Source of the DNA: Acidimicrobiia bacterium
Lineage (GTDB): Bacteria; Acidobacteriota; Vicinamibacteria; Vicinamibacterales; UBA2999
DNA length: 43,969 bases
Assembly (NCBI GenBank): GCA_016871255.1
Contig: VFZH01000014.1
Location: forward strand, 1-43,969
Reading direction: 5' to 3'
Both the position numbers and the translations under genes were made by a program. The notes under the pieces are model-generated. The model was given only the letters and a program-made list of their open reading frames with translations, ran no database searches and was not told where the DNA came from. Shown in pieces: positions 6,708 to 43,907 of this stretch. Position 1 is the first letter of the stretch, and every line of letters starts with the position of its first letter.

Positions 6708-9002
6708 CTACACGCGCCACAGCCGGTTGATCTTCACGATCAGGGCACGGTTGGCGAGCTCGGGAAACCCGCGGACGCGCGTGTCGCGCTGATCGTTGTA
6801 CACGACGAACAGCTCGCTGCCGGGCTGGTACTCCCACCGCAGCCGCACGTTGCTGGCGAGGACGTTGGCGCTGGCGTTGTACTGCACCAGCGCGCTCACG
6901 AACATCAGCGGCGTCATCGTGAAGGTCACGCGGGTGCCGGCCAGTCGCGTCGTGAAGTCACCCTGGGGCACCGTGACCCAGTTCACCGAGAACGTCGGCT
7001 GGAGCGAAAAGCGGGGTGAGACCTCCATGCGCCCCTGTCCTACGCTGAACGAGGTTCGGGCCCCTCCGTAGAAGCTGCCGCGCTCGACGGCGACGGTGCC
7101 GGACACGCGGCGGTGCGTGCCGAACGTGTACGACGCGCGCCCTTCCTGGAAGTCGTACCCGCCGACGGGGAGCGTCACGTTCGCGGCGATCCGGAACGGG
7201 CGCGGCAGGAATTCGTGCGTGTTCGCGTACGCCACCGAGAGCCGGTCGCTGTTCTGCATCTCGATGCGGAACTCGCTCTCCACCTCGCGCGTCTCGAGCA
7301 CACCGGCTCCGTCCTGCACGTGCGTCAGCGACGTGCTGAACCAGAAGCGCCGGATGGCGGCGATGGAGGCCGGGCGCGGGCTGAAGCGCGCCTGTGCGTA
7401 GTTGCGCTGCATGTTGTCGCGCCGCACGAAGCCGATCTCCGGATTGAACTTGTCGCCGACGACGAGGCGCTCGGCCTGCAGGCCGTACCGGTCGGCGTTG
7501 TAGTCGAACTGTCCCCGGTAGCTCGTGTCGTCGCCCGCCACGCCGGGCGTGCGGGTTGTCGCCCAGTAGGTGTTGATCACCAGGTTGTCGTGGAAGGCGA
7601 ACGCGCCGTCCACGCCGAAGACGGTGTTCGACCCGGGGCCGGTTTCGCGCAGCGACCGGTACGTGACCAGGGCGCCGATGCTGCTGCGGCGCAGGACGTC
7701 ACGCTTGAGGCGGGCCACGGTGAAGTTGGTGCGCCGGGCGCCGAGCGTCTCGTCGTCTGCCGACTGGATGTTGAGCGCGCCGAGGCTGTAGCGGCCCACG
7801 CGGCCGGTCAACCGGCCGCCGACCTCGATCGGTACGACCGTGCCCTGCTGCAGGCCGATCCGCCGGCTGTAGAACAGGTTGGGCACTTCGCCGCCCCCGC
7901 CCATCGCGCCGACTGCCGCGGCGCCGAAGTCGAACGTGCCGCGGTTCTCGAGGAAGAACTCCCGCTTCTCGGGGAAGAACAGGCTGAAGCGCGTCAGGTT
8001 GACCTGCTGTTCGTCGGCTTCCACCTGGGCGAAGTCGGTGTTCACCGTCAGGTCGGCGGTGAGGCCCTGGGTGACCCCGTACTTCAGGTCGAGCCCGACG
8101 TCGGCATCGAGGTCGTTCGAGACAGCCGGGCGCACGACGTTGTCGAAGCTGACGGAGGAGGTCACGAACGGCTTGATCTCCAGGTTGCGTGCCGCGCCCG
8201 GCACTTCGAGGTCGACCACGGTAGCCGCGAGGGACATGGAAACGAGACCGAAGTTGAGCCGGGACGCCGGGATCGGCACCAGGAACGACGTCTCGTTCTT
8301 CCACGGGGTAAAGCGGCGGGCGTTGAAGCCCCAGATCTGGCCGCGGCCCGGGCGGTAGCGCAGCGACCGGAACGGCATCGCCACTTCCACCGTCCAGCCG
8401 CCGTCGAAGCGTCCGGTCCTGACGTCCCAGACGGTGTTGAAGTCACCGTTGAACTGGCGCTCATCCGTGGCCTGGCCGTCGATCTTGCCGCCGATGGCGT
8501 TGATGGTGAAGGTGACCGCGTTGCGCCGGTCGTAAAAGGTGTCGAGGGCGAAGCCGAACGCGTCGTTGGCGCTGAAGATGTTGAACGAGTCGCGGCGCAT
8601 CTCGTTGGCGACGATCCGGTCCGGGTGCTCCTCCCAGCAGCGGGCGGTGACGTAGAGGTGCTCGTCGTCGTACAGCAGCCACACGTCGGTCCGCTGCGTG
8701 GCCGGTTGACCCTCCAGAGGTTCTGCCTGGATGAAGCCCGAGAAGTGAGGCGCTTCCGCGTACGCCGCGTCGTCGAGGACGCCGTCGATGCGGGGCGGCG
8801 TCCGGACACGGACGGCGCGGATGGTGGCCCGTCCGGCGGCGTCGCGGTTGATCACGGCCGGTGGCACCGGCGGGGCTGGTCCCACGATTGCCGGCAGCGA
8901 CATACCGTCTGTCTGCGACGGACTTCGATCCTGACCCGCGGCCGCCAGCCAGGGGAATAGAACCAGGAGCCAAGCAGAGAGCAGACGGGATCGCGTCGTC
9001 AC
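6708..9002 (-). CDS. CBM9/DUF5916-type outer-membrane barrel protein
   Basis: With GTG 9002 as start the protein has 764 residues and a clean signal peptide (RLLSAWLLVLFPWLAAAGQ); ATG 9128 is possible but adds 42 residues before the signal, and neither has a good ribosome-binding site. The N-terminal third is a CBM9-like beta-sandwich (PRIDGVLDDAAYAEAP, DVWLLYDDEHLYVTARCWE, FALDTFYDRRNAVTFTINAIG, GGWTVEVAMPFRSLRY). The rest is a DUF5916 region with barrel strands and the hallmark LFFPEKREFFLENRG. The chain ends with a terminal aromatic strand KINRLWRV. The family is found in the outer membranes of Acidobacteria and Bacteroidetes; its substrate is unknown. A paralogue is at 26477 and a fragment at 5922. 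Confidence 0.85.
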   Translation of the reverse strand: MTTRSRLLSAWLLVLFPWLAAAGQDRSPSQTDGMSLPAIVGPAPPVPPAVINRDAAGRATIRAVRVRTPPRIDGVLDDAAYAEAPHFSGFIQAEPLEGQPATQRTDVWLLYDDEHLYVTARCWEEHPDRIVANEMRRDSFNIFSANDAFGFALDTFYDRRNAVTFTINAIGGKIDGQATDERQFNGDFNTVWDVRTGRFDGGWTVEVAMPFRSLRYRPGRGQIWGFNARRFTPWKNETSFLVPIPASRLNFGLVSMSLAATVVDLEVPGAARNLEIKPFVTSSVSFDNVVRPAVSNDLDADVGLDLKYGVTQGLTADLTVNTDFAQVEADEQQVNLTRFSLFFPEKREFFLENRGTFDFGAAAVGAMGGGGEVPNLFYSRRIGLQQGTVVPIEVGGRLTGRVGRYSLGALNIQSADDETLGARRTNFTVARLKRDVLRRSSIGALVTYRSLRETGPGSNTVFGVDGAFAFHDNLVINTYWATTRTPGVAGDDTSYRGQFDYNADRYGLQAERLVVGDKFNPEIGFVRRDNMQRNYAQARFSPRPASIAAIRRFWFSTSLTHVQDGAGVLETREVESEFRIEMQNSDRLSVAYANTHEFLPRPFRIAANVTLPVGGYDFQEGRASYTFGTHRRVSGTVAVERGSFYGGARTSFSVGQGRMEVSPRFSLQPTFSVNWVTVPQGDFTTRLAGTRVTFTMTPLMFVSALVQYNASANVLASNVRLRWEYQPGSELFVVYNDQRDTRVRGFPELANRALIVKINRLWRV

Positions 9003-9112
9003 GGCGTCAGCGGCGCGGCGGCAGGCGCCGGCCAGGGGATGATGGAGTGCCCGGGCGCATGGGTCAAGCGTGGCGGAAAAGTCCGATGGGTCGGGAACCT
9101 GAGCGGGAACGC

Positions 9113-9144
9113 GAGCCGTGGACCGCACAGGCGGCCCACGGCTC
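9113..9144 (-). terminator. Hairpin after the TonB-dependent receptor gene
   Basis: GAGCCGTGG (9113-9121) pairs with CCACGGCTC (9136-9144) around a 14-base loop, 15 bases after the stop at 9159. No T-tract follows, so termination may be partial and the downstream DUF5916 gene could be read through. Confidence 0.45.
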
Positions 9145-9158
9145 GGGGCTCCGTTGCG

Positions 9159-12125
9159 TCAGAAGTCCAACTGGGCTCCGAACTTCACGAGACGGCCGGT
9201 CAGGATGCTGGCCACGCGCATCCAGGCTGCGCCGTAGGTGGTGTTGAGCAGCTGAACATCGTTGGCGTTGAGCAGGTTGTAGAAGTCCACCTTGGCCACG
9301 ACGCGCGTCGGGCCCAGCCGGACCGCCTTCGACACGCGCAGATCCAGCTGGCTCTGGCGGCCTTCCCGCTCGGTCTGCGGCTCGATGAGCGGTACCACGA
9401 CGGTCGCGTTGCACACAGCGGCGGCGCCGCATGCTCCGAGGTTCCTGCCCAGCGAGGGTGCGATCGCCGCATTGCCGACGACGAGGTTGGCGAGGTGCTG
9501 CACGCCCATCAGGTTCTGATAGGTGGCAGCGACCTGCGTGCCCCACGGCATCGGGTAGCTGGCCGACAGCTTCACGTGGTTTTCCGGCGTCGAAATGTCG
9601 CAGAAGTGGAGCTGCGGGCTGTCGACGACGACGCACTGGTTCAGGCGGGTGGAGCCGATGCTGCCGCCGCCGAAGACCAGGCCTCCGTTCCCGAACCTGG
9701 CGTTCACCGAGATGTCCACGCCGTTGTACACCTCGGTGCGATCGCCGAAGTTTTTCCAGAACGTCACCTGGTTGTTGACCAGCCCGAGCCTGTTCGGGTT
9801 GAGGTCGTAGAGCCCGCAGATCCGATTGCCGCCGCCGCCAGGCAGCCGTGAATCCGTCGGGGCCGTCACGCAGAACTGGGAGTAGTCCGAGGGCGCCACT
9901 TCCAGGTTGTCGGTCGTGTGCTCGTTGCCGAACCACGTCCGGTGGTAGGCGACGTTCAGCGCCATGCCCGGCATCAGCTCCTGCTGGATGCCGGCCGCGG
10001 TCTGCCAGTTGTAGGGTCGGACGTGCCACCCCTCGAGGATGTCCGGGTCGTAGAACCGGGTGAAGCGCGTCGTGCCGAAGAAGCGGTTGGCCATCGCGCC
10101 GCACTCGCCGTTGGCGCTCGGGCTGCGCAGATCGCAGTCGGGCACGTAGTCGCCGTCGGCGTCATTCCAGACGCGGAACGTCGTGCCGCCGATCGCGTCT
10201 GCCGGGTTCGTCTCCTGCGCGATGCGGGTGCCCTGCCCGACGACGTAGCGGCCGAGGCTGGCCTTGACGGCCGTCTTGCCGTCGCCGAAGACGTCGTACG
10301 CGAAGCCGAGGCGCGGCCCGAGGTCCCTCCAGTTGGGCACGTTCGGGATCTCGTCGAACGAGAACTCGGGCGTGTAGGCGCCGGCCGGCCGCGTCTGCTT
10401 CGGGTTGTAGGCGTTCAGGTAGTCGAGACGCAGGCCGAGGTTGAGCGTCATCCGCCGCACCGTCCACTGGTCCTGCACGAAGACGCCGCCGAGCGCCTTG
10501 ATGCGCGTCCGCGAGTAGCCTGGCGTGGCGAGCTGCCAGAGGCCGATCGGCACCCGGTTGCGGAACTGGTACGCCTCGGGCTCGGGTTCGCCGGGGCCGT
10601 AGTCCTGGAAGCCCCAGAGCTGCGTCATGCCGACCTTGATGGCATGGGAACCGGTCACGTACGACACGGCGAAGCGCGTGTTGGTGTAGTGGCTCTTGGA
10701 GTGGCCGTAGTCGTTCAGCCACCCGTTGGCGTTGAACAGGTGCGGGTTCGCGCCCGAGGCCATCGAGCCGTACCACATGCCGAGGCCCGCGTCCATCACC
10801 GGCCGGTCGCCCTTCTTCACGCCCGGCGCGCGGATCGGCACGTTGTCGTCCACGCGGTACGCCGCGCCGGCCTCGAACAGCAGCCTGCTCGAGAAGGGGC
10901 TGGTCCAGGTGCCCTGGTACAGCCGCTGGGGGAACGTGCCGCTCCACGACGCCTCCGGCGCGCGCGCCGGCCCGACGCTGAGGAAGCAGAGGCACATCCA
11001 CTGGGAGTTGGCGATGAAGGATACCTTCTGCCTGCTGGTGGCCTGCCAGGTGACGCGCGAGGTCAGGTAGTCGCGCGACGGCTGGTCGTTGTACGCCGGT
11101 CTGTTGAGATCGGGTTCGTAGAACAGCGTTCCCTGCGCCTTGTTGAAGAAGGTGCCGGCCAGTTCCTGCTGCGCACCCGCCACGCGATGCGCGGTCCAGA
11201 ACCACAGCTTGTCGCGAACCAGGGGGCCGCCGAACCCGCCCGCGACCTCGTACACGTGGTTCGTTCGGTTCACGCGCGTCAGTCCGTTCGCCTTCAGTGC
11301 GTCCGAGAGGTTGCCGCTCTGCAGGTTCTTGCCGGTGCCCTCGGCGTTGAAGGTGCCGCTGAACTGGTTGCCGCCGTCGCGGATGACGAAGTTGGCGTCG
11401 GGGCCTCCCGTCGACACTTCGGCCGACATGCCGCTGGTCTGGAGCACCATTTCCTGGACGGCCGCCGGGTTGATGTTGTTGCGTCGCGTGCTCATGCTGG
11501 CCATGAGCGTCATGGTGTTCATGCCCTCGACGTTCACGCCGCCGTCGCTGCGGCTGCCGTGCGCGCGCATGAAGCCGCCGAAGTCTCCGGCGTTGCCGCC
11601 CACGTCGCGGCCGGACGTCATCGTCTGCGGGACCACCCCGAGCGAGAGCGAGATGAGCGCCGGGATGCTCCTCGCGGTGGGCACGGCATCGAGGATCTCG
11701 TTGGTGATGATCGCCTGCGTCCGGACGTTCTGCACGTCCACGACCGGGCTGGCGCCGGTCACGGTGACCGTCTCTTCCAGCGAGCCGACACGCATCTCCG
11801 CACCGACGGGTGCCGTGAAGCTGGCGGTAATCGTGATGCCCTCGCGCCGGACGGTGCTGAAGCCGACCAGGCTGAAAGTCACGCTGTAGGTACCCGGCCG
11901 CAGGTCGACGATCTGGTACTGACCCTGGCTGTCGGTCACCGCGGTCCGGACCTTTTCGATCAGCGCGGGGCTGGCCGCTTCGACGGTCACCCCGGGGAGC
12001 ACCGCCCCGGTCGTGTCACGAACGGTGCCGGCGATTGCCCCGTTCGTACTGGATTGCCCCGCAGCCGCGACCGGCCACAGCAGGGCTGCCAGGAGCAGGA
12101 TGCTCCTGAAACGTCGCGTACCCAT
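9159..12125 (-). CDS. TonB-dependent receptor, Oar type (carboxypeptidase-regulatory N-domain)
   Basis: A 988-residue outer-membrane protein with ATG at 12125 and GGAGG six bases before it. Signal peptide 1-24; carboxypeptidase-regulatory-like domain about 27-110 (GAIAGTVRDTTGAVLPGVTV, GTYSVTFSLVGF); plug domain about 115-230 (EETVTVTGASPVVDVQNVR); then a long beta-barrel ending GRLVKFGAQLDF with the C-terminal aromatic residue. An acidic loop DADGDYVPDCD in the barrel looks like a calcium-binding loop. Such receptors import large or scarce ligands using TonB energy; the ligand is unknown. It follows the coupled haem/copper pair on the same strand after a 67-base gap and precedes a DUF5916 gene. 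Paralogues are at 15530 and 36776. Confidence 0.9.
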   Translation of the reverse strand: MGTRRFRSILLLAALLWPVAAAGQSSTNGAIAGTVRDTTGAVLPGVTVEAASPALIEKVRTAVTDSQGQYQIVDLRPGTYSVTFSLVGFSTVRREGITITASFTAPVGAEMRVGSLEETVTVTGASPVVDVQNVRTQAIITNEILDAVPTARSIPALISLSLGVVPQTMTSGRDVGGNAGDFGGFMRAHGSRSDGGVNVEGMNTMTLMASMSTRRNNINPAAVQEMVLQTSGMSAEVSTGGPDANFVIRDGGNQFSGTFNAEGTGKNLQSGNLSDALKANGLTRVNRTNHVYEVAGGFGGPLVRDKLWFWTAHRVAGAQQELAGTFFNKAQGTLFYEPDLNRPAYNDQPSRDYLTSRVTWQATSRQKVSFIANSQWMCLCFLSVGPARAPEASWSGTFPQRLYQGTWTSPFSSRLLFEAGAAYRVDDNVPIRAPGVKKGDRPVMDAGLGMWYGSMASGANPHLFNANGWLNDYGHSKSHYTNTRFAVSYVTGSHAIKVGMTQLWGFQDYGPGEPEPEAYQFRNRVPIGLWQLATPGYSRTRIKALGGVFVQDQWTVRRMTLNLGLRLDYLNAYNPKQTRPAGAYTPEFSFDEIPNVPNWRDLGPRLGFAYDVFGDGKTAVKASLGRYVVGQGTRIAQETNPADAIGGTTFRVWNDADGDYVPDCDLRSPSANGECGAMANRFFGTTRFTRFYDPDILEGWHVRPYNWQTAAGIQQELMPGMALNVAYHRTWFGNEHTTDNLEVAPSDYSQFCVTAPTDSRLPGGGGNRICGLYDLNPNRLGLVNNQVTFWKNFGDRTEVYNGVDISVNARFGNGGLVFGGGSIGSTRLNQCVVVDSPQLHFCDISTPENHVKLSASYPMPWGTQVAATYQNLMGVQHLANLVVGNAAIAPSLGRNLGACGAAAVCNATVVVPLIEPQTEREGRQSQLDLRVSKAVRLGPTRVVAKVDFYNLLNANDVQLLNTTYGAAWMRVASILTGRLVKFGAQLDF

Positions 12126-12192: not shown

Positions 12193-13128
12193 CTACTGCA
12201 CGTTGAAAGTGATGTCTTCCCACTCCATGAGGCCACCGTCATGTGCCAGACACCGGAGCACGTATTGGCCAGGTTCGTGAAACGTCGCCCGGACGATCCA
12301 GCGGCCGTCGGGCGGGACGGGCGGGGGCGTCCAGCCCCACGCCCAGGGGGAGCCGGCCCGCGTGTCCATGTAGGTCTTGAACTGTGGAGGATCGAACGTG
12401 ACCCGCCCGCCGCCGCGATACACGAACCAGGACAGCCGCAGGCCCACGGCACTCGACACCGCGGCGCTGCCGCTGGACGAGCCGCGGTTGATCGGCATCC
12501 CGCGCGGCGCCGGCACGCCGTCGTCGGTGGCGATGGCGTGCAGGACGACCGGCTCGCCGACCCGCGCGGTCCGCTCGCGCGTCCCTTCGACCTCGAGCTC
12601 GGGTCCGGTGTTGGCGTTCAGCTCCAGGGTGCCGCCGCGCCCGCCGGCCGCGCCGTTGTTCGCGGTGATGATGTTGTCGTTGATCACGTAGATCGGCTTC
12701 AGCGTGCCGTAGGCTCGCTCCGTGATTCCCCTGCTCGTCAACGTCCAGACGAGTTCCTTGTCGCCGAAGTCCGCGGGTACCCGCACGCGGAACACGAACA
12801 GGTTCCGCCGGGGCTGGAAGTGGGTGGGCTGACCCTGATCCGGACCACCAGGCTCAATGTGGTTGTCCGGGCCGACCGGGACGTCGATGGCCTCGTCCCA
12901 GTTCCGGTTGAAGTAGCCGAACACGAGATCGAACGAGCCGTCGGGATTCTGCTCCCAGCCTTCGTAGGCCGGCGCGATGTTCTGGCCACGGGCGAACGTG
13001 AGATCCTGCGCGTCCGGACGGGCCCAGGCGAGCAGGAGGCCGGCGCAGGCAGCCGAAGCTGTCAGCCCCGTGCCGAACCTTCCAAGCCGCCTCGTGGTCG
13101 CTGACGCCGCCCGCGCCGTGTTCGTCAT
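12193..13128 (-). CDS. Exported partner protein of the haem/copper-monooxygenase-like protein, function unknown
   Basis: A 311-residue protein whose ATG (13128) overlaps the stop of the upstream gene by four bases, so the two are translationally coupled. A signal peptide lies around residues 22-45 after a basic n-region. The N half has YEGWEQNPDGSFDLVFGYFN and RNWDEAIDVPVGPDNHIEPGG, then RRNLFVFRVRVP; the C half has VVLHAIATDDGVP, LRLSWFVYRGGG and ends YVLRCLAHDGGLMEWEDITF. The C half is likely an Ig/cadherin-like beta-sandwich. I know no named domain for it. A clear paralogue at 40001 sits in the same order behind the same kind of partner, so the two proteins probably work together. Confidence 0.75.
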   Translation of the reverse strand: MTNTARAASATTRRLGRFGTGLTASAACAGLLLAWARPDAQDLTFARGQNIAPAYEGWEQNPDGSFDLVFGYFNRNWDEAIDVPVGPDNHIEPGGPDQGQPTHFQPRRNLFVFRVRVPADFGDKELVWTLTSRGITERAYGTLKPIYVINDNIITANNGAAGGRGGTLELNANTGPELEVEGTRERTARVGEPVVLHAIATDDGVPAPRGMPINRGSSSGSAAVSSAVGLRLSWFVYRGGGRVTFDPPQFKTYMDTRAGSPWAWGWTPPPVPPDGRWIVRATFHEPGQYVLRCLAHDGGLMEWEDITFNVQ

Positions 13129-14546
13129 CGTGAGGCGCGCGAAGACCCGGCTGCGGCGCCCTCGGGAAGATAGCAGGTGGGGCAGCCGATCGGCGTGGCC
13201 TGTCCCGCAGCGATCTTCTTCCGCCGCTCGTCCACCGCCTCCGCGAACTGCTCGTCCGTCATCGGGACCACGTACGGCAGGTTGACGATCATGTTGTCCA
13301 CCGAACGGTTTCCCCAGCCCGTCCAGTTGCGCGGCTCGTAGACCAGCGGATTCTTCGCGGTCGTGTCGAAGTACCCGGTGATCTTGAGAATGGTGCCCTT
13401 CGGCAGCAGCGGGGCCGAGTCGTCCGTGTACTGGTAGTTGCGCACCCAGTTGTGGTTGTAGCCCGCGCAGTTGAGGGTCTCGGTGCGGCCGCCCCAGATC
13501 GCCTGGAAGCACATGCCGACGCCCGTGGCGTGGAGGTGCGGCTCGAAGTTCAGGATCTTGGCGTTCTCCTGCAGCACCGTGTAGGCGTCGATTTCCTGGT
13601 TCGCCTCGTTCGGACGCAGGTCCACCTCGGTCGTGCCGAAGCCGATGCCGCGGTATTCCATCGTGGGCTTGTAACCCTTCGGGTGGAATCGGAACCCCAG
13701 CTCGAGGTGGGCGTTGGTCTCGACGACGCCGTTGGCGTGGAGGTGGTTGTCGAAGAAGAGGATGGTCGAGCCCGCCCGCAGCAGCCGTCCGGCCCGCGGA
13801 TCGAACTGGTCGGGGTTGCGGCCGACTTCGTGCGCGGGGATGCGTGACTGCGGGTCCGTCTGGCCGTCCGGGCCGGCGAGGCCGAAGTTGGCGTGGTGGA
13901 ACACGAACAGCCCCCCGACCGTCCCGCCCCTGGCCAGCTCGCGGGGATCGACATCGTTCACTTCGCGGATCTCGACGGACCTGACATAGCGGTCCTCGGC
14001 GAGGCCCGTCGGCGTCTCACCGATCGCTCCCCACCAGTCCGGCGCGACGGCCTTCACGGTGACCGTTGGCGACCTGACGATGAGATCCGGCTCGCCCAGT
14101 TCCCAGACGGGGCTGCTGGAGACCTCGGGAAGGGCGATCGGGGGTGGCAGATCACCGGGGCTGCCCTCCGGCGCGCCCGCCTCCACCCAACGCGCGATCG
14201 TGCCGATCTGCTCGTCGCTGAGCGACATGTCCGACTTGAAGGACTGGATGCCGATCGTCCTGTCGATGTACCAGGGCGGCATCGTCCGTTGGGCCGTCTG
14301 CTGCCGGATGGCACGCGCGTAGGGTCGCACCTGCTCGTAGGTCATCAGGGCCATCGGCGCGATGTAGTTCGGCCGGTGGCACGACTGACACTTCTGCTGC
14401 AGGATGGGCGCGATGTCCTTCGTGAACGTCACCTCAGCCTGCAGGCCGGCCTGGCCGGAGACGGACGAGCCCGAGCCGACCACGGCAAGCACGGTGGACG
14501 TGAGTACGGCAGACAGACGACGGAGCCGGTTCGGTGGTTCGACCAT
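13125..14546 (-). CDS. Exported c-haem protein with a copper type II monooxygenase-like domain
   Basis: The 473-residue protein starts at ATG 14546 with AAGGGA upstream. Signal peptide about 1-32. A c-type haem site CQSCH is at 53-57, with the following helix-rich region (APMALMTYEQVRPYARAI, TMPPWYIDRTIGIQ, WVEAGAPEG) typical of cytochrome domains in these proteins. The C-terminal two thirds resemble the peptidylglycine/dopamine monooxygenase fold: HH at 217-218, HLH at 268-270 and HLH at 337-339 are candidate copper ligands, followed by LLPKGTILKITGYFDTT. A CPTC pair is at 455-458. The domains suggest an oxidase or oxygenase receiving electrons through its own haem. Substrate and activity are not shown. 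Homologues in the window are at 40912 and 42583. Confidence 0.8.
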   Translation of the reverse strand: MVEPPNRLRRLSAVLTSTVLAVVGSGSSVSGQAGLQAEVTFTKDIAPILQQKCQSCHRPNYIAPMALMTYEQVRPYARAIRQQTAQRTMPPWYIDRTIGIQSFKSDMSLSDEQIGTIARWVEAGAPEGSPGDLPPPIALPEVSSSPVWELGEPDLIVRSPTVTVKAVAPDWWGAIGETPTGLAEDRYVRSVEIREVNDVDPRELARGGTVGGLFVFHHANFGLAGPDGQTDPQSRIPAHEVGRNPDQFDPRAGRLLRAGSTILFFDNHLHANGVVETNAHLELGFRFHPKGYKPTMEYRGIGFGTTEVDLRPNEANQEIDAYTVLQENAKILNFEPHLHATGVGMCFQAIWGGRTETLNCAGYNHNWVRNYQYTDDSAPLLPKGTILKITGYFDTTAKNPLVYEPRNWTGWGNRSVDNMIVNLPYVVPMTDEQFAEAVDERRKKIAAGQATPIGCPTCYLPEGAAAGSSRASR

Positions 14547-15529: not shown

Positions 15530-18463
15530 CTAGAAGCTGTACTGCGCGCCGAGCTTGATCATGCGGCCGGCCATGATGGTCGTCGGCGTTCCCCAGCCCG
15601 CGCCGGCCGCGGCGGTGCTGAAGGTGTTGTTGCGGACCAGCACCGTCGAGGCGTTGGTCATGTTGAACAGGTCGAGCGTCAGGCGGACGCGGCCGAAACC
15701 GCCCCGGAGGACGCCGCCCAGCCGGAAGTCGAGCTGGTTGACCCGCTCCTCGAACTGCGTGAAGGGCTGAATCAGCGGCACGGTGACCGTGGCGCCGTTC
15801 AGGTTGCGGCCGAGCGAGCTGAACACGTCGGCGCGCGTGAACACGCCGTTGGCCAGCACCTGCAGGCCGGGCAGGTTCTGGTATACCGCGGACAGCTCGA
15901 TGCCGAAGGGCAGCGGGTACGAGCCGGCGAACTTGATCTGGCCGCCGGCATCCCACCAGGGACGCTCCACATTGCAGAAGTGCAGCTCCTGCGGGTCGTC
16001 CACCACGAAGCAGCGAACCTCGACGGTCCTGCCGAACGCCACGCCGCCCTGCAGGATCGCGCCGTTCTGGAACCGGGAGTTCACGCCGATGTCCACGCCG
16101 TCGAACACCTCGGTCTGGTTGCCGAAGGTCCTCTCGGACCGGACCATGTTCCGTACCTGTCCGAATTTCACGGGCTTCACGTCCGTGAGGCCGGAGATCG
16201 TCGTGCCGGCGCCCGGCAGCCCCCGCGGCACGACGACGCGGTACATGTCGTAGTCCGCAGGCGTCACCAGCGTGTTGTCGGTGACCGTCTGGTTGAAGTG
16301 CATCGTCCGGAAGTAGGTGATGCTGAGGCCGAGGTTGTTGTTCAGCTCGCGCTCGATGCCGGCCGAGGCCTGCCAGGTGTAGGCGCGGTTCTCCGTCAGG
16401 TAGTCCGGATCGAAGAACTGCGTGATGACCGGCCTGCCGAAATTCACGTTCGACAGCGGACCGAGCTCGTTCGCATCGGGGAACCAGTCGCCGTCCGCAT
16501 CGAACCACGTCCTGGACGCCGTCGTCGCGATGGCCAGCGCCGGGTTGGTGGGCTGCACCGTCCCGCCGCCAGCCGCGGCGATGTAGCGGCCGGCCGAGGC
16601 CTTGATGGCCGTCTTGCCGTCGCCCGCCAGGTCGTAGGCCACCCCGATGCGCGGCGAGACGTCACGCCAGGTCGGCGTGTCCTCGATGCGCTGGGTCGTG
16701 AAGCCGGGTCCGAACGCGGTATCCGGCGTCGTCTGCGTCGGGCTCCAGCCGTCGAACATGTCGAAGCGGACGCCCAGGTTCAGCGTCATCTTCCCGATAC
16801 GCCAGAGGTCCTGCGCGTAGACGCCGACGTTCTGGAAGTCCACGCGGTTGTACTTCGGGTTGGAGAAGATGTTGATCAGGATTGGCGCGCCCCGGAAGAG
16901 GATGAACGCCGCGGGGCCGAAGCCGGGCACTTCGTTGGCCTTGCCGTTCTGCTCGACGAGGCCGTGTGCCCAGGACATGCCCACCTTGAAGGCGTGCTCG
17001 CCGGTCACATAGGACAGCGCGAAGCGCGCGTTCTGCTGGCCGGCCTGCGCCGGACCGCCGCCGGGGCCGTCGTAGTCGTTGTAGGGCAGGCCGCCGCTCG
17101 GGAACGCGTTCCACACCTCGCCGGTCGTGGCCTCGATGTGCGGTATGTCACTGTGCGACCCGCCGGGCGAGAGACGGAAGCTGAACGGGTTGTGCAGGTA
17201 GCTGAAGCCGCCCTCGAACAGCATGCGGTTGTTCTGGACGCGGTTCCAGGTGGCCTGCGAGAGGTGATTCTCCGGCAGGTGGTTGTTGAGCGTCGCTTCG
17301 GGCGCGAGGGTCCGGCTGATGGCCAGGAAGCAGACGCACTGCTGGCCCAGGTTGCCGTAGTAGGCGATCTTGTCCTTGGACGTCGCCTGCCAGGTGATGC
17401 GGCCGCTGTTGTCCTGGTTGTAGTCCTCGCGGTACCCGCGGCGGCTCAGGTCCTTCGTCCAGACGTGCCCACCCTGCGTCGCGTTGAAGAAGGCGCCCGG
17501 CTGGTACTGCGAGTTCCCCCACCAGCGGTGCGCCGTGTAGAACCACAGCGTGTCGCGCTTGATCGGGCCGCCGAGGGAGCCGCCGTAGTCGTAGATGATC
17601 TTGATGCTCCCGGGCGTGCTCGTGCCGCGCGCGATGAGCTCGTCGGTCAGGTTGTCGGACTGGAGGTCTTCGTTGGTGAAGGTGGCGCGGCCGGAGCCCG
17701 TGAACTGGTTGCCGCCGTCCTTCGGGATGTAGTTGATCTGCGCGCCCGCCGTCTCCGTCTCCGCGCTCATCCCGTTGTGCGCCATGGTGACGGCCTGCAT
17801 CGCCTCCATGTTGTAGTGCTGGCCGGCGTGGAACTGCCCGCCGTTGGTCCCCATGGAGTTGTTGGTGTTCATCCCCTCCATGGTGATCTTCATGTCGGTC
17901 ATGCGGTTGTTGTGCACGGCGACGGTGCCCATCTCGCCCTGGTTGCCGCCCACGTCCTGCTGCGTGACGCCGACGTTGGTCGTGCCCAGCGTGAGCGCGG
18001 TCATGCTGGAAATCGTCTGGGCGTTCGGGAGTTGGTCGAGCACGTCGCGCGTGATGGTGGTCTGCGTGCGCACGTTCTGCACGTCCACCGTGGGGCTCGC
18101 GCCGGTGACGGTGACGGTCTCCTCGATCGATCCGACCTTGAGCTGGGCGTTCACCGGGGCGGTGAACCCCTGGATGATCTGGATGCCTTCACGCACGACG
18201 ACGGCGAAGCCGGCCAGCGTGAACGTGACGCGGTAGGTGCCCGTGCGCAGGTTGGTGACGCTGTAGCCACCGTTGCTGTCGGTGACCGCCGTGCGGACGC
18301 CTTCGATCAGCGCCGGACTGGAGACCTCGACGGTCACGCCCGGGAGCACCGCGCCGGTCGTGTCCGTGACGGTTCCTGAAATGGCGGTGTCCTGTGCCAA
18401 CGCCAGTGCAGGTGTGAAGAAGAGCACGCCCAGAACGAACCCCAGGATCCTCCGATGCGACAT
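15530..18463 (-). CDS. TonB-dependent receptor, Oar type
   Basis: A 977-residue outer-membrane protein. ATG 18463 is chosen over an upstream ATG because it is preceded by GAGG and begins the signal peptide (ILGFVLGVLFFTPALALAQ). Carboxypeptidase-regulatory-like domain about 26-110 (AISGTVTDTTGAVLPGVTV), plug about 115-230 (EETVTVTGASPTVDVQNVR, GMNTNNSMGTNGG), barrel to the end with terminal strand IKLGAQYSF. An acidic calcium-type loop DADGDWFPDANEL is present. The plug shares long blocks with the receptor at 36776, including the NTNNSMGTNGG segment, so these two are the closer paralogues. Ligand unknown. It faces the SnoaL-like gene at 14846 and shares the hairpin at 15491. Confidence 0.9.
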   Translation of the reverse strand: MSHRRILGFVLGVLFFTPALALAQDTAISGTVTDTTGAVLPGVTVEVSSPALIEGVRTAVTDSNGGYSVTNLRTGTYRVTFTLAGFAVVVREGIQIIQGFTAPVNAQLKVGSIEETVTVTGASPTVDVQNVRTQTTITRDVLDQLPNAQTISSMTALTLGTTNVGVTQQDVGGNQGEMGTVAVHNNRMTDMKITMEGMNTNNSMGTNGGQFHAGQHYNMEAMQAVTMAHNGMSAETETAGAQINYIPKDGGNQFTGSGRATFTNEDLQSDNLTDELIARGTSTPGSIKIIYDYGGSLGGPIKRDTLWFYTAHRWWGNSQYQPGAFFNATQGGHVWTKDLSRRGYREDYNQDNSGRITWQATSKDKIAYYGNLGQQCVCFLAISRTLAPEATLNNHLPENHLSQATWNRVQNNRMLFEGGFSYLHNPFSFRLSPGGSHSDIPHIEATTGEVWNAFPSGGLPYNDYDGPGGGPAQAGQQNARFALSYVTGEHAFKVGMSWAHGLVEQNGKANEVPGFGPAAFILFRGAPILINIFSNPKYNRVDFQNVGVYAQDLWRIGKMTLNLGVRFDMFDGWSPTQTTPDTAFGPGFTTQRIEDTPTWRDVSPRIGVAYDLAGDGKTAIKASAGRYIAAAGGGTVQPTNPALAIATTASRTWFDADGDWFPDANELGPLSNVNFGRPVITQFFDPDYLTENRAYTWQASAGIERELNNNLGLSITYFRTMHFNQTVTDNTLVTPADYDMYRVVVPRGLPGAGTTISGLTDVKPVKFGQVRNMVRSERTFGNQTEVFDGVDIGVNSRFQNGAILQGGVAFGRTVEVRCFVVDDPQELHFCNVERPWWDAGGQIKFAGSYPLPFGIELSAVYQNLPGLQVLANGVFTRADVFSSLGRNLNGATVTVPLIQPFTQFEERVNQLDFRLGGVLRGGFGRVRLTLDLFNMTNASTVLVRNNTFSTAAAGAGWGTPTTIMAGRMIKLGAQYSF

Positions 18464-18675
18464 GTGCAGCCTCGCTTCTGTGATGCGCGCGACGTACCGG
18501 CCCACGAGGCCGGAACGCCAGTCAGCCGGAAGTCTACCCATGCAAACGGCCCGACTCTCCGCAGGCAGCTCGGCGGTTAAAAGCCGATGCCCCTGGGAAG
18601 CCGATCGATCCTAACGCCTGGGTAGACGCACGGCGAACGGGCAGCAACGGCCGGCAGACGAACACGTCCACCGGC

Positions 18676-28733: not shown

Positions 28734-30866
28734 CTACCGATCGAGCGGACTGCCGCGGAGCTGGAAGTGCACGGCTTTGCTGGTGGCGCCGCGGCCGCCT
28801 TCGTAGTGCCACGGCGTCATGCTGCTGTAGGAGGCCCAGAGGCCGCGTCCCTTCCAGCCGCCCTCGGGGTCGTCGATGCGCCCGTCCATGCCCCGCGTGT
28901 AGAAACCGAGCGGATACGGCACCCGCAGCACCACCCAGGTGCGGTTGGGCCCCAGGGCCAGCAGGGCGTCGGAGAACGTGCCGTTGGCGATCGGCGTGTT
29001 CGCGCCCAGGCCGAACGTGTCGAACTGGTCCACGAAGTTGTAGTAGTGGAAGTCCGCGCTGCCGCCGTCGGCCACGTTCCTGAAGTTCGGCCCCGGCGTC
29101 TGGTGCAGGCTCCAGCCTTCCGGGCAGTGCCGGCCGGTCGCCGTCGGGCCGTTCAGCACCGCACACTTCCTGCGGTCGAAGCTCGCAAGATGCCCGCTGT
29201 TCAACGCGGCCCACACGAGGCCGTTGCGGTCGACGTCGATGCCGCGCGTCGTGTGGCCGGGCAGCGGCGGGATGTAGGCCTCGGACAGCTTCGTCGCCGG
29301 GTCGACCCGGATAATCAGGCCGGGAGTGCCGGAGGCGGACGTCCAGATGCTTCCGTCGACCGGGTTCTCGATGATGCCGTAGCTGCCGCCGCGGATCCGC
29401 TTGTCGCGCGCCGGATCGGCCGCCTCGTCGGGCGTCCCGACCTCGTCGAAGGCGTCCAGCCGGCCGTTGCCGTTGTTGTCGAGGACGAACGGCAGCCAGC
29501 CCTGCGAGGCTTTCGCGTCCTTCGTCGCGTCCCACTGGCGCGTGTTCAGCCAGCCGATGTAGGGCGCGTCGGCGGTGCTGAACCACAGCGTGTCGTCCGC
29601 GTCGTCCGCGAAATAGAGGTGGTGCGTCATGAAGCAGGTGGGGATCGTGTCCACCTGTCCGCTCTTCGGGTCGTACACCGCCGCGTGGCGTGCGCTCTGC
29701 CTGATGGGGAAGAGCTTCGCCGACGGGTGCAGCGCGCCGTCGGTACACCAGGCCGGGTTCTCCGGCGGCCGGACCGTGGCCGTCACCCACAGCCGGCCGT
29801 GCTCGTCGAGCATCGGGTTGTGCAGGTTGGCGCGGTTGGCCCAGATGATCTCCTCGCCCCAATAGGGCGACGGCTGCGAGACCTGCTGGCCGGTCGAAAA
29901 CGGCGTGGTCGGGTCCTCGATCGGGATCGTCACCGGGCGATCGGTGACGTGGCGCACCGGGTCGAGCCGGCTGACGTCGGGGGCGTTGTGCCGATCGGCC
30001 GCGTAGACCGGGCCGTACGCGTTCAGCGTCGGCCTGCGCTTGTCGGTGGACACCAGATCGTGGATGAAGGCGTGCGGGTGCGCCCAGTCCCACTGCGTGA
30101 TGACCACGTTCCGCTCGACGCCGGAGGGACGTGGTGGCGCCGGCGGCACTTCACCGTCCGCGATGCGATCCGTCCAGTCCGCGAACGCGGCCCGCCGCTC
30201 GCCCAGGCGCCGGAAGCCGGCCGCCATGCCGGCGCCCATCTGGCCCGAGTCCACGCGGCGGTCCCAGGCTTCCAGCGACGTCTCGAACGAGCCGAGGTGC
30301 TTCGGGGGCTCGCGCGTGATCGTCGAGCCCATCTGGTGGCAGACGCTGCAGGCGCCTTTCAACTGCCCGACGTATTGCCACTGGGCCGTGAAGCTGGCGC
30401 CGATGCCGTTGCCGCCTGCCCCGGTGCCGGGAAACTCGTCGGCGCGGGGCATCTCCAGGAGCGAGAACCAGTAGCTGCCAGGGTAGATCGCGGCGGCGGC
30501 CTGCGCGGTGGGCGCGACGATCGCCTGGAGATCCTGCGTCCGACCCGGCGCCGCGGTGACGCGCGGCGAGTCCACCAGCCCGTAGCCCCGGACCCAGAGG
30601 GTGTAGGACCCCGCGGGGAGGTCGGGCACGAGGTACCGCCCGTGCTCGTCGGTGACGACGATCTTCCGGAACCCGGCGGGCAGGTCGCTCGTCTCCGCGA
30701 TGACCCAGACGCCCGCTTCCGGACCCTTCGCACTCCGGACGATGCCGCCGATGTCGTCGGCGTCCACGGTGACGGTGGCCGCCTGGCGGGCGGCCGGCGT
30801 GGCGTACCACCCCAGGACTGCGGTTCCGGCGAGACCGGCGAATGCGGCGAGCGCCCGGAGCGTCAT
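28734..30866 (-). CDS. Exported haem-c protein with carboxypeptidase-regulatory and beta-propeller domains
   Basis: A 710-residue protein with ATG 30866, four bases after the cytochrome stop; GAGGA upstream lies in that gene's end. Signal or anchor about 1-30. A carboxypeptidase-regulatory-like domain (about 38-110: IGGIVRSAKGPEAGVWVIAE, GSYTLWVRGYGLVDSPRV) is followed by a single c-haem site CSVCH at 173-177. Further on, NNGNGRLDAFDE resembles an EF-hand-type calcium loop, and blades such as GIIENPVDGSIWTSASG and RGIDVDRNGLVWAALNSGHL show a Vgb-like propeller. It ends WHYEGGRGATSKAVHFQLRG. Closely related to 31278-33440 over its full length. The family is common in Acidobacteria without a known function; haem suggests a role in oxidation. 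Confidence 0.82.
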   Translation of the reverse strand: MTLRALAAFAGLAGTAVLGWYATPAARQAATVTVDADDIGGIVRSAKGPEAGVWVIAETSDLPAGFRKIVVTDEHGRYLVPDLPAGSYTLWVRGYGLVDSPRVTAAPGRTQDLQAIVAPTAQAAAAIYPGSYWFSLLEMPRADEFPGTGAGGNGIGASFTAQWQYVGQLKGACSVCHQMGSTITREPPKHLGSFETSLEAWDRRVDSGQMGAGMAAGFRRLGERRAAFADWTDRIADGEVPPAPPRPSGVERNVVITQWDWAHPHAFIHDLVSTDKRRPTLNAYGPVYAADRHNAPDVSRLDPVRHVTDRPVTIPIEDPTTPFSTGQQVSQPSPYWGEEIIWANRANLHNPMLDEHGRLWVTATVRPPENPAWCTDGALHPSAKLFPIRQSARHAAVYDPKSGQVDTIPTCFMTHHLYFADDADDTLWFSTADAPYIGWLNTRQWDATKDAKASQGWLPFVLDNNGNGRLDAFDEVGTPDEAADPARDKRIRGGSYGIIENPVDGSIWTSASGTPGLIIRVDPATKLSEAYIPPLPGHTTRGIDVDRNGLVWAALNSGHLASFDRRKCAVLNGPTATGRHCPEGWSLHQTPGPNFRNVADGGSADFHYYNFVDQFDTFGLGANTPIANGTFSDALLALGPNRTWVVLRVPYPLGFYTRGMDGRIDDPEGGWKGRGLWASYSSMTPWHYEGGRGATSKAVHFQLRGSPLDR

Positions 30867-36617: not shown

Positions 36618-36675
36618 GGCACGGCGAGTCGTCTGTGCTCATCGGGCCAGGCCGTGTCGGCTTCTCAGGCCGTGA
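36592..36675 (+). CDS. Possible 27-codon leader peptide
   Basis: AAGGAGG five bases before ATG 36592 is one of the strongest ribosome-binding sites in the window. The frame encodes 27 residues, ten of them arginine, starting MRSRLRCTRARRVVCAHRAR, and stops at TGA 36673-36675. Its first eight codons lie in the second arm of the 21-bp inverted repeat, so translation would open the hairpin. It may equally be chance; there is no other support. It lies about 100 bases before the TonB-dependent receptor gene. Confidence 0.25.
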   Translation: MRSRLRCTRARRVVCAHRARPCRLLRP

Positions 36676-36683
36676 CTCAGCCA

Positions 36684-36712
36684 TTGCGGCGGTCCTACCT
36701 CATCCATTAAAC
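36684..36712 (+). promoter_or_regulatory. Promoter candidate for the TonB-dependent receptor gene
   Basis: TTGCGG (36684-36689) and TTAAAC (36707-36712) are 17 bases apart, in a locally AT-richer patch. The start site would be near 36719, immediately before a hairpin in the leader. Confidence 0.4.
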
Positions 36713-36719
36713 TGCGCCA

Positions 36720-36741
36720 GGCCGGGGTTTCGCCCCCGGCC
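36720..36741 (+). promoter_or_regulatory. 5' leader hairpin of the receptor mRNA
   Basis: GGCCGGGG (36720-36727) pairs with CCCCGGCC (36734-36741) around a 6-base loop, at the expected 5' end of the transcript. It may stabilise the mRNA or control its elongation. The ribosome-binding site GAAGGGGG is outside it. Confidence 0.45.
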
Positions 36742-36775
36742 GGCACGTACTTGTCGGATTCTTGAAGGGGGACAT

Positions 36776-39700
36776 ATGGCACTTGGGAAGACGTGGGCCC
36801 GCCTGGGCCTGCTCGTGGCGGCACTGGGCCTGGCCGGCAATGTTGAGGCGCAGACGCTGGGCGCGATCGCCGGTCTGGTGACCGATGCCACCGGCGGCGT
36901 GCTGCCGGGGGTGACGGTGGAAGCCTCCAGCCCGGCGCTGATCGAAGGCGCCCGGACGGCGGTGACGGACGGACAGGGGCGATACAGCATCGTCAGCCTG
37001 CCGCCCGGCACCTACGCCGTGAACTTCACGCTGTCGGGTTTCAGCGTAGTCCGGCGTGAAGGCGTGACGCTGAACGCGGGCTTCACCGCGCCGGTGAACG
37101 CCGAGCTGAAGGTCGGCTCGCTCGAAGAGACCGTGACGGTGACCGGCGCCAGCCCGACGGTGGACGTGCGCAACGTCCGCACGCAGGCCGTGATGGAGCG
37201 CGAGACGCTCGACCAGCTGCCGTCGGCGCAGAACGTGACCTCGTTCGCGTCGCTGACGCTGGGCGCCACGCTGAGCGGGAACGGCAGCGGCGCGGGCGTG
37301 GACGTGGGCGGCTCCGGCGGTCCGATGGGTCTGGCCTCGGTGCACAACAGCCGGGGCAACGACATGAAGACGTCCCAGGACGGGATGAACACCAACAACT
37401 CCATGGGGACGAACGGCGGCATCATGCACTTCGGCCAGGTCTACAACATGGAGGCCGTGTCCGAGGTCGTGCTGTCGCACACCGGCATGAACGCGGAAAC
37501 GGAGACGGCCGGGCTGCAGATCAACTACATCCCGAAGGACGGCGGCAACCGCGTGTCGTTCTCCGGCCGGGCGACGTTTGCCAACGAGGACTTCCAGTCG
37601 GACAACCTCACCGACGGGCTGCGCGCGCGCGGCGTCACCACGGCGTCGACGGTGAAGGAGGTCAGCGACTACGGCTTCGGCCTGGGCGGGCCGATCCAGC
37701 GCGACCGGCTGTGGTTCCACACGGCGCACCGCTGGTGGAAGGCCGACACCTACGCGCCGGGCAGTTTCTGGAACGCGGCGCACGGGCAGAAGGCGGCCAA
37801 CGGCGTGCCGCTGTACGTGGCGGACACCAGCCGGCGCGGGTTCAACTCGGAGCCGTCGCGCGAGAACTCGGTCCGCCTGACGTGGCAGGCGTCGAGCAAG
37901 GACAAGATTGGCTACTACGGCAACCTGGGGCACCACCTGCAGGTCCGCGGGGTCAGCGCGACGCTCGCGCCCGAGGCGGAGCAGATCGCCAGCACGCCGG
38001 CGAACCATCTGAGCCAGGCCACGCTGACGCGCACGCAGTCGAACCGGCTGCTGTTCGAGGCTGGGCTCACGGTGCTCAGAAATCCCTTCGAGTTCCAGTA
38101 TCCGGACGGTGTCGGCGTGGCGGACGTGTCGATCGTGGAGCTGTCGCCTCAGCTTTCCTACAACGCGCGGTCGTCGTCGGCCATCCCCTACAACGTCGGG
38201 GATCCGAGCGACACGGACCAGGTGAACTGGCGCGCGTCGATGGCCTACGTGACCGGCTCGCACAACGTGAAGGTCGGGATGCAGTGGGCGCACGGCTGGA
38301 TCGAGAACAACGGGTCGAACAACCCGATCCCGAACTTCGGGCCGGTCCAGGTCGTGACCAACCGGGGAGTGCCGATCAGCCTGACGCTGTTCGTGCACCC
38401 GCAGTACGTGCGGAGCGACTTCCGCAACATGGGCGTCTACGCGCAGGACCAATGGACGGTCGGCCGCGCGACGCTGAACCTCGGCGTGCGCGGCGACTTC
38501 TTCGACGGCTGGAGTCCGGACCAGACGACGCCGGAGAACCCATACGTGCCGGTGTTCCGCACGAGCCGCGTGGATGGCACGCCGCGGTGGCGTGACATCT
38601 CGCCGCGCCTCGGGTTCGCGTACGACCTGACCGGCGACGGCAAGACGGCCATCAAGGTCTCGGCCGGGAAGTACATGGCGGGCATGGGGACGCAGCTCCC
38701 GCTGCAGAACAACCCCGGCAACGCCATCTCCAAGACGACCACGCGGACGTGGAACGACGCCAACCAGAACTTCTTCCCGGAAGGCGATCCGCGGAACCCG
38801 GCCGCGAACGGCGAGCTGGGGCCGAGCACGAACGCGGCGTTCGGCACGTCGGTGATCACCAACTTCTTCGATCCGGCAATGCTCACGGACAATCGGCCCT
38901 ACACCTGGCAGATCTCCACGTCGGTGGAGCGCGAGCTGCGCGAGGACCTGCGCCTGTCGGTCGGCTACTTCCGGACGTCGCACTACAACCAGACCATCGT
39001 GGACAACACGGCGGTCACGCCGTCCGACTACGACTCGTTCTGCATCACGACGCCGTCGCACGCGGCCCTGCCGGGCGGCGGCGGCCAGCGGGTGTGCGGT
39101 TTCGCGGACGTCTCGTTCGCCGGCCGCGCGCGCGTGCCCCGCAACACGACGAAGCCCGACTCGACCTTCGGCGACCAGACCGAGGAGTTCAACGGCATCG
39201 ACGTCGAAATGCGATACCGCTTCGGCGAGGGTGGCCTCCTCCAGGGTGGCGTGAGCCTCGGCCAGACGGTCAACAACAGCTGCATCGTCGTCGACTCGCC
39301 GCAGGGGATCTCCGGCTCCGTGCCGTTCGACTTCTGCAAGGTGACCGTGCCCTGGTGGGACGGCAACGGGCAGTTCAAGGTGAGCGCCGCCTACCCGCTG
39401 CCGTACGGCGTGGAGTTCAGCGCCATCTACCAGAACCTGGTCGGTCCGGCCATCCAGGCCACGGCGACGATGCTGAACGCCTCCATCGCGCCGGCGCTGG
39501 GACGGAACCTGTCGGCGTGCGCGTCACCGGTCGGCGCGTGCATCGCCACCGCCTCGCTGAGCCTGATCGAGCCGAACACGCTCTACGAGGAGCGCGTGCA
39601 GCAGATCGACCTCCGCTTCGCGAAGGTGTTCAATACGGGGATCGGCCGTACCCGCGCGACCTTCGACCTCTACAATGCGACCAACGCCTCGTCCGTGCTG

Positions 39701-39805
39701 AACCGCAACAACGCGTTCGGCACGAGCGGCGTGGGCTGGGGCCGTCCCACCGCCATCATGGGCGGGCGGCTGATCAAGCTGGGCGTGCAGCACAGCTGGA
39801 ACTGA
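36776..39805 (+). CDS. TonB-dependent receptor, Oar type
   Basis: A 1009-residue outer-membrane protein; ATG 36776 follows GAAGGGGG and opens a signal peptide (ARLGLLVAALGLAGNVEAQ). Carboxypeptidase-regulatory-like domain about 28-112 (AIAGLVTDATGGVLPGVTVE), plug about 115-235 (EETVTVTGASPTVDVRNVR, DGMNTNNSMGTNGGIMHFGQ), then the barrel with last strand LIKLGVQHSWN. The loop that is DADGDxxPD in the other two receptors reads DANQNFFPEGDP here, so that acidic calcium-type loop is lost. The terminal residue is N after W rather than F. It is on the same strand as the quinoprotein-like fusion gene, and a relic of a haem-propeller gene lies immediately downstream. Ligand unknown. Confidence 0.9.
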   Translation: MALGKTWARLGLLVAALGLAGNVEAQTLGAIAGLVTDATGGVLPGVTVEASSPALIEGARTAVTDGQGRYSIVSLPPGTYAVNFTLSGFSVVRREGVTLNAGFTAPVNAELKVGSLEETVTVTGASPTVDVRNVRTQAVMERETLDQLPSAQNVTSFASLTLGATLSGNGSGAGVDVGGSGGPMGLASVHNSRGNDMKTSQDGMNTNNSMGTNGGIMHFGQVYNMEAVSEVVLSHTGMNAETETAGLQINYIPKDGGNRVSFSGRATFANEDFQSDNLTDGLRARGVTTASTVKEVSDYGFGLGGPIQRDRLWFHTAHRWWKADTYAPGSFWNAAHGQKAANGVPLYVADTSRRGFNSEPSRENSVRLTWQASSKDKIGYYGNLGHHLQVRGVSATLAPEAEQIASTPANHLSQATLTRTQSNRLLFEAGLTVLRNPFEFQYPDGVGVADVSIVELSPQLSYNARSSSAIPYNVGDPSDTDQVNWRASMAYVTGSHNVKVGMQWAHGWIENNGSNNPIPNFGPVQVVTNRGVPISLTLFVHPQYVRSDFRNMGVYAQDQWTVGRATLNLGVRGDFFDGWSPDQTTPENPYVPVFRTSRVDGTPRWRDISPRLGFAYDLTGDGKTAIKVSAGKYMAGMGTQLPLQNNPGNAISKTTTRTWNDANQNFFPEGDPRNPAANGELGPSTNAAFGTSVITNFFDPAMLTDNRPYTWQISTSVERELREDLRLSVGYFRTSHYNQTIVDNTAVTPSDYDSFCITTPSHAALPGGGGQRVCGFADVSFAGRARVPRNTTKPDSTFGDQTEEFNGIDVEMRYRFGEGGLLQGGVSLGQTVNNSCIVVDSPQGISGSVPFDFCKVTVPWWDGNGQFKVSAAYPLPYGVEFSAIYQNLVGPAIQATATMLNASIAPALGRNLSACASPVGACIATASLSLIEPNTLYEERVQQIDLRFAKVFNTGIGRTRATFDLYNATNASSVLNRNNAFGTSGVGWGRPTAIMGGRLIKLGVQHSWN

Positions 39806-40000: not shown

Positions 40001-40915
40001 TCAGCGGACAGTGACGGTGACGTCCTGGTAGGTGCCGAGCCCGCCGTCGTGGGCAAGGCATCGCAGGACGTACGTACCGGGCGTCTCGAACGTGACCCCG
40101 ATCCTCCACCGGTTCCCTTCCGGCACCGGGGGCGGGGCCCAGCCCGGTGACCAGGGCGATCCGCCTCTCAGGTCCACGTACGGCTTGAACTGCGGCGGGT
40201 CGAAGCGCACGGCGGCGCCCTCACCCCGGTACACGAACCAGGTCAGCCGCAGGCCCGCAGCGCTCTGGAGCGTACCCAGCGCGCTCGAGAACGGCGAGCC
40301 GAAGAACGCCGGCAGCGGCTCGGCTCTCGGCAGACCGTCGTCAGCGGCCTGCGCCGAGAACCGCAGCGGTTCGCCGACGCGCGCGGTCCGAGGGGCGCCG
40401 CCGCCGTCCAGTTCGAGTGACGGTGGCCGGTTGTCGCGCGATGCTTCGGCGGTCGTCACACCCGGACCCACGGCTCCGAGCGTGGCCGTCATCACGTCGG
40501 CGTTGAGCAGGTAGCCGGGGCGCAGCGTGCCGTATGCGCGCTCGGTGACCCCGTGGGTCGTCAGCGTCCAGATCACGTCCCGATCGCCGAAGTCCTTCGG
40601 CACGCGCACGCCGAAGAGGAAGAAGTTCCGGCGGGGCAGGAAGTGCGTGGGCTGGCCGAGGTCCGGGCCGCCCGGCTCGAGGTGGTTGTCCTGTCCGACC
40701 GGCACGTCGATCGCCTCGTCCCAGTTCCGGTTGAAGGTGCCGAACACCATCATGTGGGAGCCGTCCGGATTGGTCCCCCAGCCTTCGTAGACCGGCACGA
40801 CGCTTCTGCCGCGCGACCAGGTCGTCCCGGGCTCCTGCGCGGCCGACAGGTGCAGCGTCGTCCATGCGGCGGCGATCGCCAGCAGGGCCCATCGGCCGGG
40901 TCGCGCGCAGGTCAC
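40001..40915 (-). CDS. Exported partner protein of the haem/copper-monooxygenase-like protein, second copy
   Basis: A 304-residue protein starting with GTG 40915 inside a 4-base overlap (GTGA) with the upstream gene, so it is translationally coupled. Signal peptide about 8-26 (WALLAIAAAWTTLHLSAAQ). It shares with 12193-13128 the blocks VYEGWGTNPDGS, FNRNWDEAIDVPVGQDNHLE, GGPDLGQPTHFLPRRN, ERAYGTL, LRLTWFVYRGEG and the end YVLRCLAHDGGLGTYQDVTV. The central part with GEPLRFSAQAADDGLP may be an Ig-like sandwich. I recognise no named domain. That the pair of genes is kept in the same order and overlap in two places suggests a functional complex with the haem/copper protein. Confidence 0.78.
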   Translation of the reverse strand: MTCARPGRWALLAIAAAWTTLHLSAAQEPGTTWSRGRSVVPVYEGWGTNPDGSHMMVFGTFNRNWDEAIDVPVGQDNHLEPGGPDLGQPTHFLPRRNFFLFGVRVPKDFGDRDVIWTLTTHGVTERAYGTLRPGYLLNADVMTATLGAVGPGVTTAEASRDNRPPSLELDGGGAPRTARVGEPLRFSAQAADDGLPRAEPLPAFFGSPFSSALGTLQSAAGLRLTWFVYRGEGAAVRFDPPQFKPYVDLRGGSPWSPGWAPPPVPEGNRWRIGVTFETPGTYVLRCLAHDGGLGTYQDVTVTVR

Positions 40916-43878: not shown

Positions 43879-43907
43879 GCTGTCCTCCTGACTGAGCACC
43901 TGCGAGC

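Follow-up and report, generated by a model that had tools for sequence, protein, structure and literature searches.

Gene pairs in the window

The window (the whole stretch of DNA that was analysed, 43,969 nucleotides) comprises two gene pairs, A1/B1 and A2/B2, in which a gene for a haem/copper protein (A) is followed by a gene for a predicted exported partner protein (B); all of these genes lie on the minus strand. The features of the pairs and of their surroundings are as follows.

9159-12125, minus strand: outer-membrane receptor-like protein (CarboxypepD_reg; SusC/TonB-receptor type), starting 67 bases after B1
12193-13128, minus strand: B1, open reading frame of 311 aa
13125-13128, minus strand: stop-start overlap of A1 and B1, ATGA
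13125-14546, minus strand: A1, open reading frame of 473 aa
13290-13292, minus strand: predicted CuM ligand M419 of A1 (81/81 pairs)
13530-13538, minus strand: predicted CuM ligands H337-x-H339 of A1 (81/81 pairs)
13743-13745, minus strand: predicted third CuH ligand H268 of A1 (81/81 pairs)
13893-13898, minus strand: predicted CuH ligands H217-H218 of A1 (81/81 pairs)
14376-14390, minus strand: haem c motif CQSCH of A1 (C53, C56, H57)
40001-40915, minus strand: B2, the second partner, GTG start, open reading frame of 304 aa
40912-40915, minus strand: stop-start overlap of A2 and B2, GTGA
40912-42276, minus strand: A2, the second haem/copper protein, open reading frame of 454 aa
42583-43899, minus strand: third A-type gene, upstream of A2, without a B of its own

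The first-pass annotation had described a duplicated pair with gene order, four-base overlap and sequence preserved; its coordinates are exact, both overlaps are present, and the identity over the length is 50% for A1/A2 and 58% for B1/B2. The c-haem motif and histidine pairs that it named were recovered in A1 and A2 (CQSCH/CQRCH; HH, HLH and HLH/HMH), as were the blocks YEGW, NPDGS, FNRNWDEAIDVPVG and LRCLAHDGG in B1 and B2. It overlooked the third A-type gene, which is 39-40% identical to A1/A2 and retains the ligands in an alignment of A homologues, and the wider set of pairs across the genome.

The receptor-like gene that trails B1 is possibly an operon partner of A1/B1 at this locus, without being a conserved part of the pair. 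Four such CarboxypepD_reg outer-membrane-receptor-like genes were found in the window (9159-12125, 15530-18541 and 28734-30866 on the minus strand; 36635-39805 on the plus strand), and a DUF5916/CBM9 gene is located at 6708-9128, beyond the receptor-like gene.

Predicted domain structure and metal ligands of protein A

A1 is predicted to consist of a signal peptide, a monohaem cytochrome c domain (residues ~38-125), a PHM/DBH-like copper monooxygenase part (~150-433) and a C-terminal CPTC motif. The curated libraries (Pfam, NCBIfam) gave only weak matches for A: A1 scored 15.2 bits against Pfam Cytochrom_C / Cytochrome_CBB3 (cut-off 27), a match that recurred in 58/66 A members at E <=0.1, and the proteins of the window did not match the Pfam copper type II monooxygenase families, for which the divergent homologue L041 reached 23.6 bits with Cu2_monoox_C (Pfam cut-off 23). 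Profile comparison of an alignment built from 66 A homologues with rat PHM alone gave no significant match, and neither A nor B had a significant sequence match among solved structures. By these comparisons A appears remote from PHM in sequence, and since the profile of A failed against rat PHM alone, the sequence link to PHM/DBH rests on divergent members and on the structure model.

The AlphaFold model of A1 (mean pLDDT 79.7) was aligned by VIA-align to DBH with a Z-score of 18.2 (rmsd 3.9, 295 residues aligned) and to PHM with a Z-score of 17.6 (rmsd 3.3, 245 aligned); this match spans residues ~151-433, and the best unrelated fold reached a Z-score of only 8.7. The top 31 Foldseek matches of the model were all DBH/PHM, with moderate TM-scores of 0.4-0.6 to these enzymes.

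Ligand conservation was scored over 81 distinct A-B pairs. All six predicted copper ligands are invariant (81/81), the haem CxxCH is present in 79/81 pairs and falls into a gap in the remaining two, and the candidate axial methionines of the haem domain are conserved in 80/81 (M65) and 81/81 (M89). Aligned to PF03712, the HxH of L041 begins at position 53, as does H242-x-H244 of rat PHM, and M406 of L041 and M314 of rat PHM are both found at about position 128. Furthermore, the order of the copper ligands equals that of the published DBH set (H262, H263, H333, H412, H414, M487; PMC4846438), at similar spacing. A carries a signal-like N-terminus, and genes for c-cytochrome maturation are present in the source genome.

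The fold match, the ligand conservation, the Cu2_monoox_C alignment and the c-cytochrome maturation genes together indicate that A combines, in one chain, a c-haem domain with a modelled PHM/DBH-type (copper type II) monooxygenase fold. The label 'haem/copper oxidase-like' given to A at first therefore has to be replaced by a more specific one, the copper part having the PHM/DBH fold in the model and the haem domain being separate; a membrane-bound haem-copper oxidase, with haem and CuB in one active site, was ruled out on the same grounds. The accompanying idea of a self-fed haem plus copper oxygenase stands as far as its design is concerned, which is real and conserved, the histidine pairs included.

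A late CxxC is present in 74/81 paired A proteins and is possibly a redox disulfide or an additional metal site. In A1 this is the C-terminal CPTC (13173-13184, minus strand), a CxxC without the haem histidine; the third A-type gene of the window (42583-43899) lacks it.

Partner protein B

B1 is predicted to be exported and to be composed of an Ig-like N-domain (~44-146) and a PKD-like C-domain (~173-311); its model (pLDDT 85.2) contains two Ig-like beta-sandwich domains. No Pfam or NCBIfam family matched B above cut-off. PKD matches were weak (17/64 B homologues, best 3.3e-5), and matches to DUF6538 were judged to be spurious (8/64 homologues, best 9e-4, covering ~25 residues of B1). The model matched Ig-like domains in general, with Z-scores mostly of 6.5-8.5, which in the model comparison appears to reflect the common beta-sandwich and nothing more. 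The C-domain resembles PKD and other Ig-like beta-sandwich domains (weak PKD matches; Z up to 8.5), whereas the two-domain arrangement and the motifs GGPDQGQPTHFLPRR and FNRNWDE are B's own, and B appears to be a widespread protein family without a name in Pfam or NCBIfam.

The invariant residues of B are Gly, Pro, Trp, Asp, Asn, Arg and similar. The B alignment has no His, Cys or Met that is conserved throughout, and no column of these residues exceeded 64%, which argues against a metal carrier; B as a copper carrier or known copper chaperone was dropped for this lack of conserved ligands. In 14 genomes of one other genus of the phylum (f51 g91), matches cover the N-domain only, mostly as frames of ~190 aa directly upstream of A, and the N-domain seems, by these matches, to be the essential part of B.

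Pairing of A and B across genomes

A search for B in 84,980 species genomes yielded 72 loci, which belong to Acidobacteria, Gemmatimonadetes and Gammaproteobacteria (e.g. Pseudohongiella), besides a few odd bin labels. A adjoins B on the same strand in 70/72 of these independent loci, in three phyla (the exceptions being L035 and L072); A is nearly always upstream of B, and the two genes usually overlap or are spaced by anything from a few bases to several tens. An exhaustive pairing search in nine genomes gave 103 B matches, and in 96 of these an A lies no more than 1 kb away (A is the upstream gene in 79 and B in 13, and the two are on opposite strands in four); among the seven B without a near A, some sit at contig ends. 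Hence, by both counts, B is seldom found without the haem/copper gene, and the partner described at first as an undescribed subunit or maturation factor is undescribed indeed and almost always beside A.

The reverse count depends on the similarity of A: in the nine genomes, B was found beside 26/26 A proteins scoring >600 bits and 41/43 at 400-600 bits, and beside only 8/27 distant ones, so B goes with one large branch of the wider haem-copper family. A phylum survey of 396 genomes found B in 39 and A in 86.

The source genome (3.9 Mb) contains nine B-type genes and 11 A-type matches, most of them side by side and one in the order B-A (C3:36013-38236). By a rough estimate, the chance of a given B adjoining one of ~11 A among ~3,500 genes is well below 1%, and about 8/9 were seen to do so; adjacency of A and B is far beyond chance. 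Some genomes hold ~20 A-B pairs. A very large paralogous expansion was observed in two genomes of 4.8 Mb (G077) and 4.4 Mb (G229), with 24 and 18 B-type matches, respectively. No relatives were found in viral contigs or plasmids.

Co-divergence is apparent within genomes: for seven pairs of the source genome, the distances among A and among B correlate with r 0.82, a value reached by 57/5040 permutations, and in a second genome with r 0.67 (45/5040 permutations). A natural A-B fusion, a single case from a draft genome, occupies one uninterrupted reading frame of 791 codons (L122:944-3316, G221:C79), from which the signal peptide of B is gone. At G229:C6:49747-52094, in-frame stop codons interrupt the A gene three times and its B gene once, as if the pair had decayed together.

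Gene neighbourhoods

The families that flank A-B change between loci, the next commonest neighbour being far rarer than A is beside B. No constant third member was found, any other family recurring in a small fraction of the loci at most, and a gene cluster with such a member was dropped as an explanation. The contexts include receptor-like proteins, PQQ dehydrogenase, PIG-L deacetylase, the creatininase family and molybdopterin oxidoreductase, a variety that would fit several substrates. In Gammaproteobacteria (L083, L085, L089-L094), a gene with a CopC domain is located divergently upstream of A, and B is followed by an AraC regulator and CtaA; the CopC and CtaA neighbours are in keeping with the use of copper and haem.

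Receptor-like genes near both pairs of the window, and at some other loci, could suggest that A and B are mere neighbours in mobile or polysaccharide-use clusters (SusC/TonB-type receptors) without joint function; this is very improbable and strongly disfavoured, for A and B are the only genes common to the loci while flanking families change, and their pairing is kept in three phyla and among paralogues; the pairs also show co-divergence and, in one case, a fusion.

Comparison with known systems

A shares with PHM/DBH (PF01082/PF03712) the two-domain jelly-roll fold, the order and spacing HH..H..HxH..M and, by prediction, the export. It differs in its N-terminal c-haem domain, in its low identity (~10-14%), in being bacterial with many paralogues, and in its obligate-looking partner B. 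In contrast to PHM, A also lacks a conserved arginine at the carboxylate-binding position: Arg240 of PHM, two positions before HxH, binds the peptide carboxylate, and in A1 Glu335 appears in its place, so peptide amidation by A seems unlikely from the alignment.

The DOMON domain of DBH has been aligned with the cytochrome domain of cellobiose dehydrogenase (CDH) (PMC4846438). The DBH DOMON domain and the CDH cytochrome domain that feeds LPMOs resemble the haem domain of A in being redox or haem-type domains that accompany a copper monooxygenase, either joined to it or as its partner; the haem domain of A, unlike these, is c-type (CxxCH), mostly helical and fused to a PHM-type part, which it would feed by analogy.

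No description of the A-B pair was found in a library of open-access papers, although haem-copper A proteins may carry automated annotation in databases. The fold of A and its set of ligands are already known; a version fused to haem, together with an apparently unnamed partner that looks obligate, did not turn up in these papers.

Proposed function

The reading that we consider reasonably probable is that A is a copper monooxygenase of the periplasm which receives electrons by way of its own c-haem, and that B is its dedicated non-metal subunit. It builds on gene structure, predicted fold, ligand conservation, near-obligate pairing, co-duplication and one fusion, from which we infer periplasmic export (signal-like N-termini), copper and haem loading, hydroxylation, the electron route, contact between A and B, and the role of B. 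A and B would thereby form a two-gene module for a secreted (periplasmic) enzyme. A would be a two-site copper monooxygenase, with CuH bound by H217, H218 and H268 and CuM by H337, H339 and M419, in which the N-terminal c-type haem domain would stand in for ascorbate: electrons of the respiratory chain would pass through the haem to CuH and on to the O2-activating CuM, which would hydroxylate a C-H bond of the substrate. B would be a two-domain, Ig-like non-metal subunit bound to its cognate A; its most likely task would be to shape the access of substrate, or to dock the substrate or the electron donor. The presence of a separate B for each A paralogue suggests that the paralogues act on different substrates.

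Alternatively, B might be a maturation or secretion factor that aids the folding, copper uptake or placement of A and then leaves. The tight coupling of B behind A, the need of A for haem attachment and two copper sites, and the divergent CopC-domain gene in Gammaproteobacteria are in line with such a helper; yet B has no conserved His, Cys or Met to carry copper, a helper that all pairs share would not have to be duplicated along with every one of ~20 paralogues, and the natural fusion keeps B on A. We regard this as unlikely: one B per A in ~20 pairs, co-duplication, the fusion and the lack of a conserved metal ligand favour, between the two roles first proposed for the partner, the dedicated subunit.

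Somewhat less likely still, A may have retained fold and ligands of PHM as an electron-transfer, copper-storage or nitrite/peroxide-handling protein that is no oxygenase. Fold alone is no proof of activity, and A has not retained the residues with which PHM binds its substrate; however, the six copper ligands, including the methionine of CuM, are invariant in the 81 pairs, as expected of a working oxygen-activating site, and supplying electrons is a sensible role for a separate haem.

Under the preferred reading of a haem-fed monooxygenase with B as its subunit, there is significance beyond the window. PHM and DBH are textbook enzymes that depend on ascorbate, and the electron transfer between their two distant coppers has long been debated; a bacterial version with built-in haem would be tractable, as the copper-to-copper transfer could be watched optically. 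With the A family, the C-H hydroxylating enzymes would gain a large and as yet unexplored group, and the B family, nameless in Pfam and NCBIfam, now has a near-obligate context. More tentatively, and with somewhat less than even confidence, haem-fed copper hydroxylases with an Ig-like subunit may be a widespread bacterial class, expanded to ~20 pairs per genome in Vicinamibacteria and relatives, wired to respiration and with each pair adapted to a different substrate that is acquired or converted at the cell envelope. If true, a chemistry that is driven by ascorbate in animals would here be wired directly to respiration.
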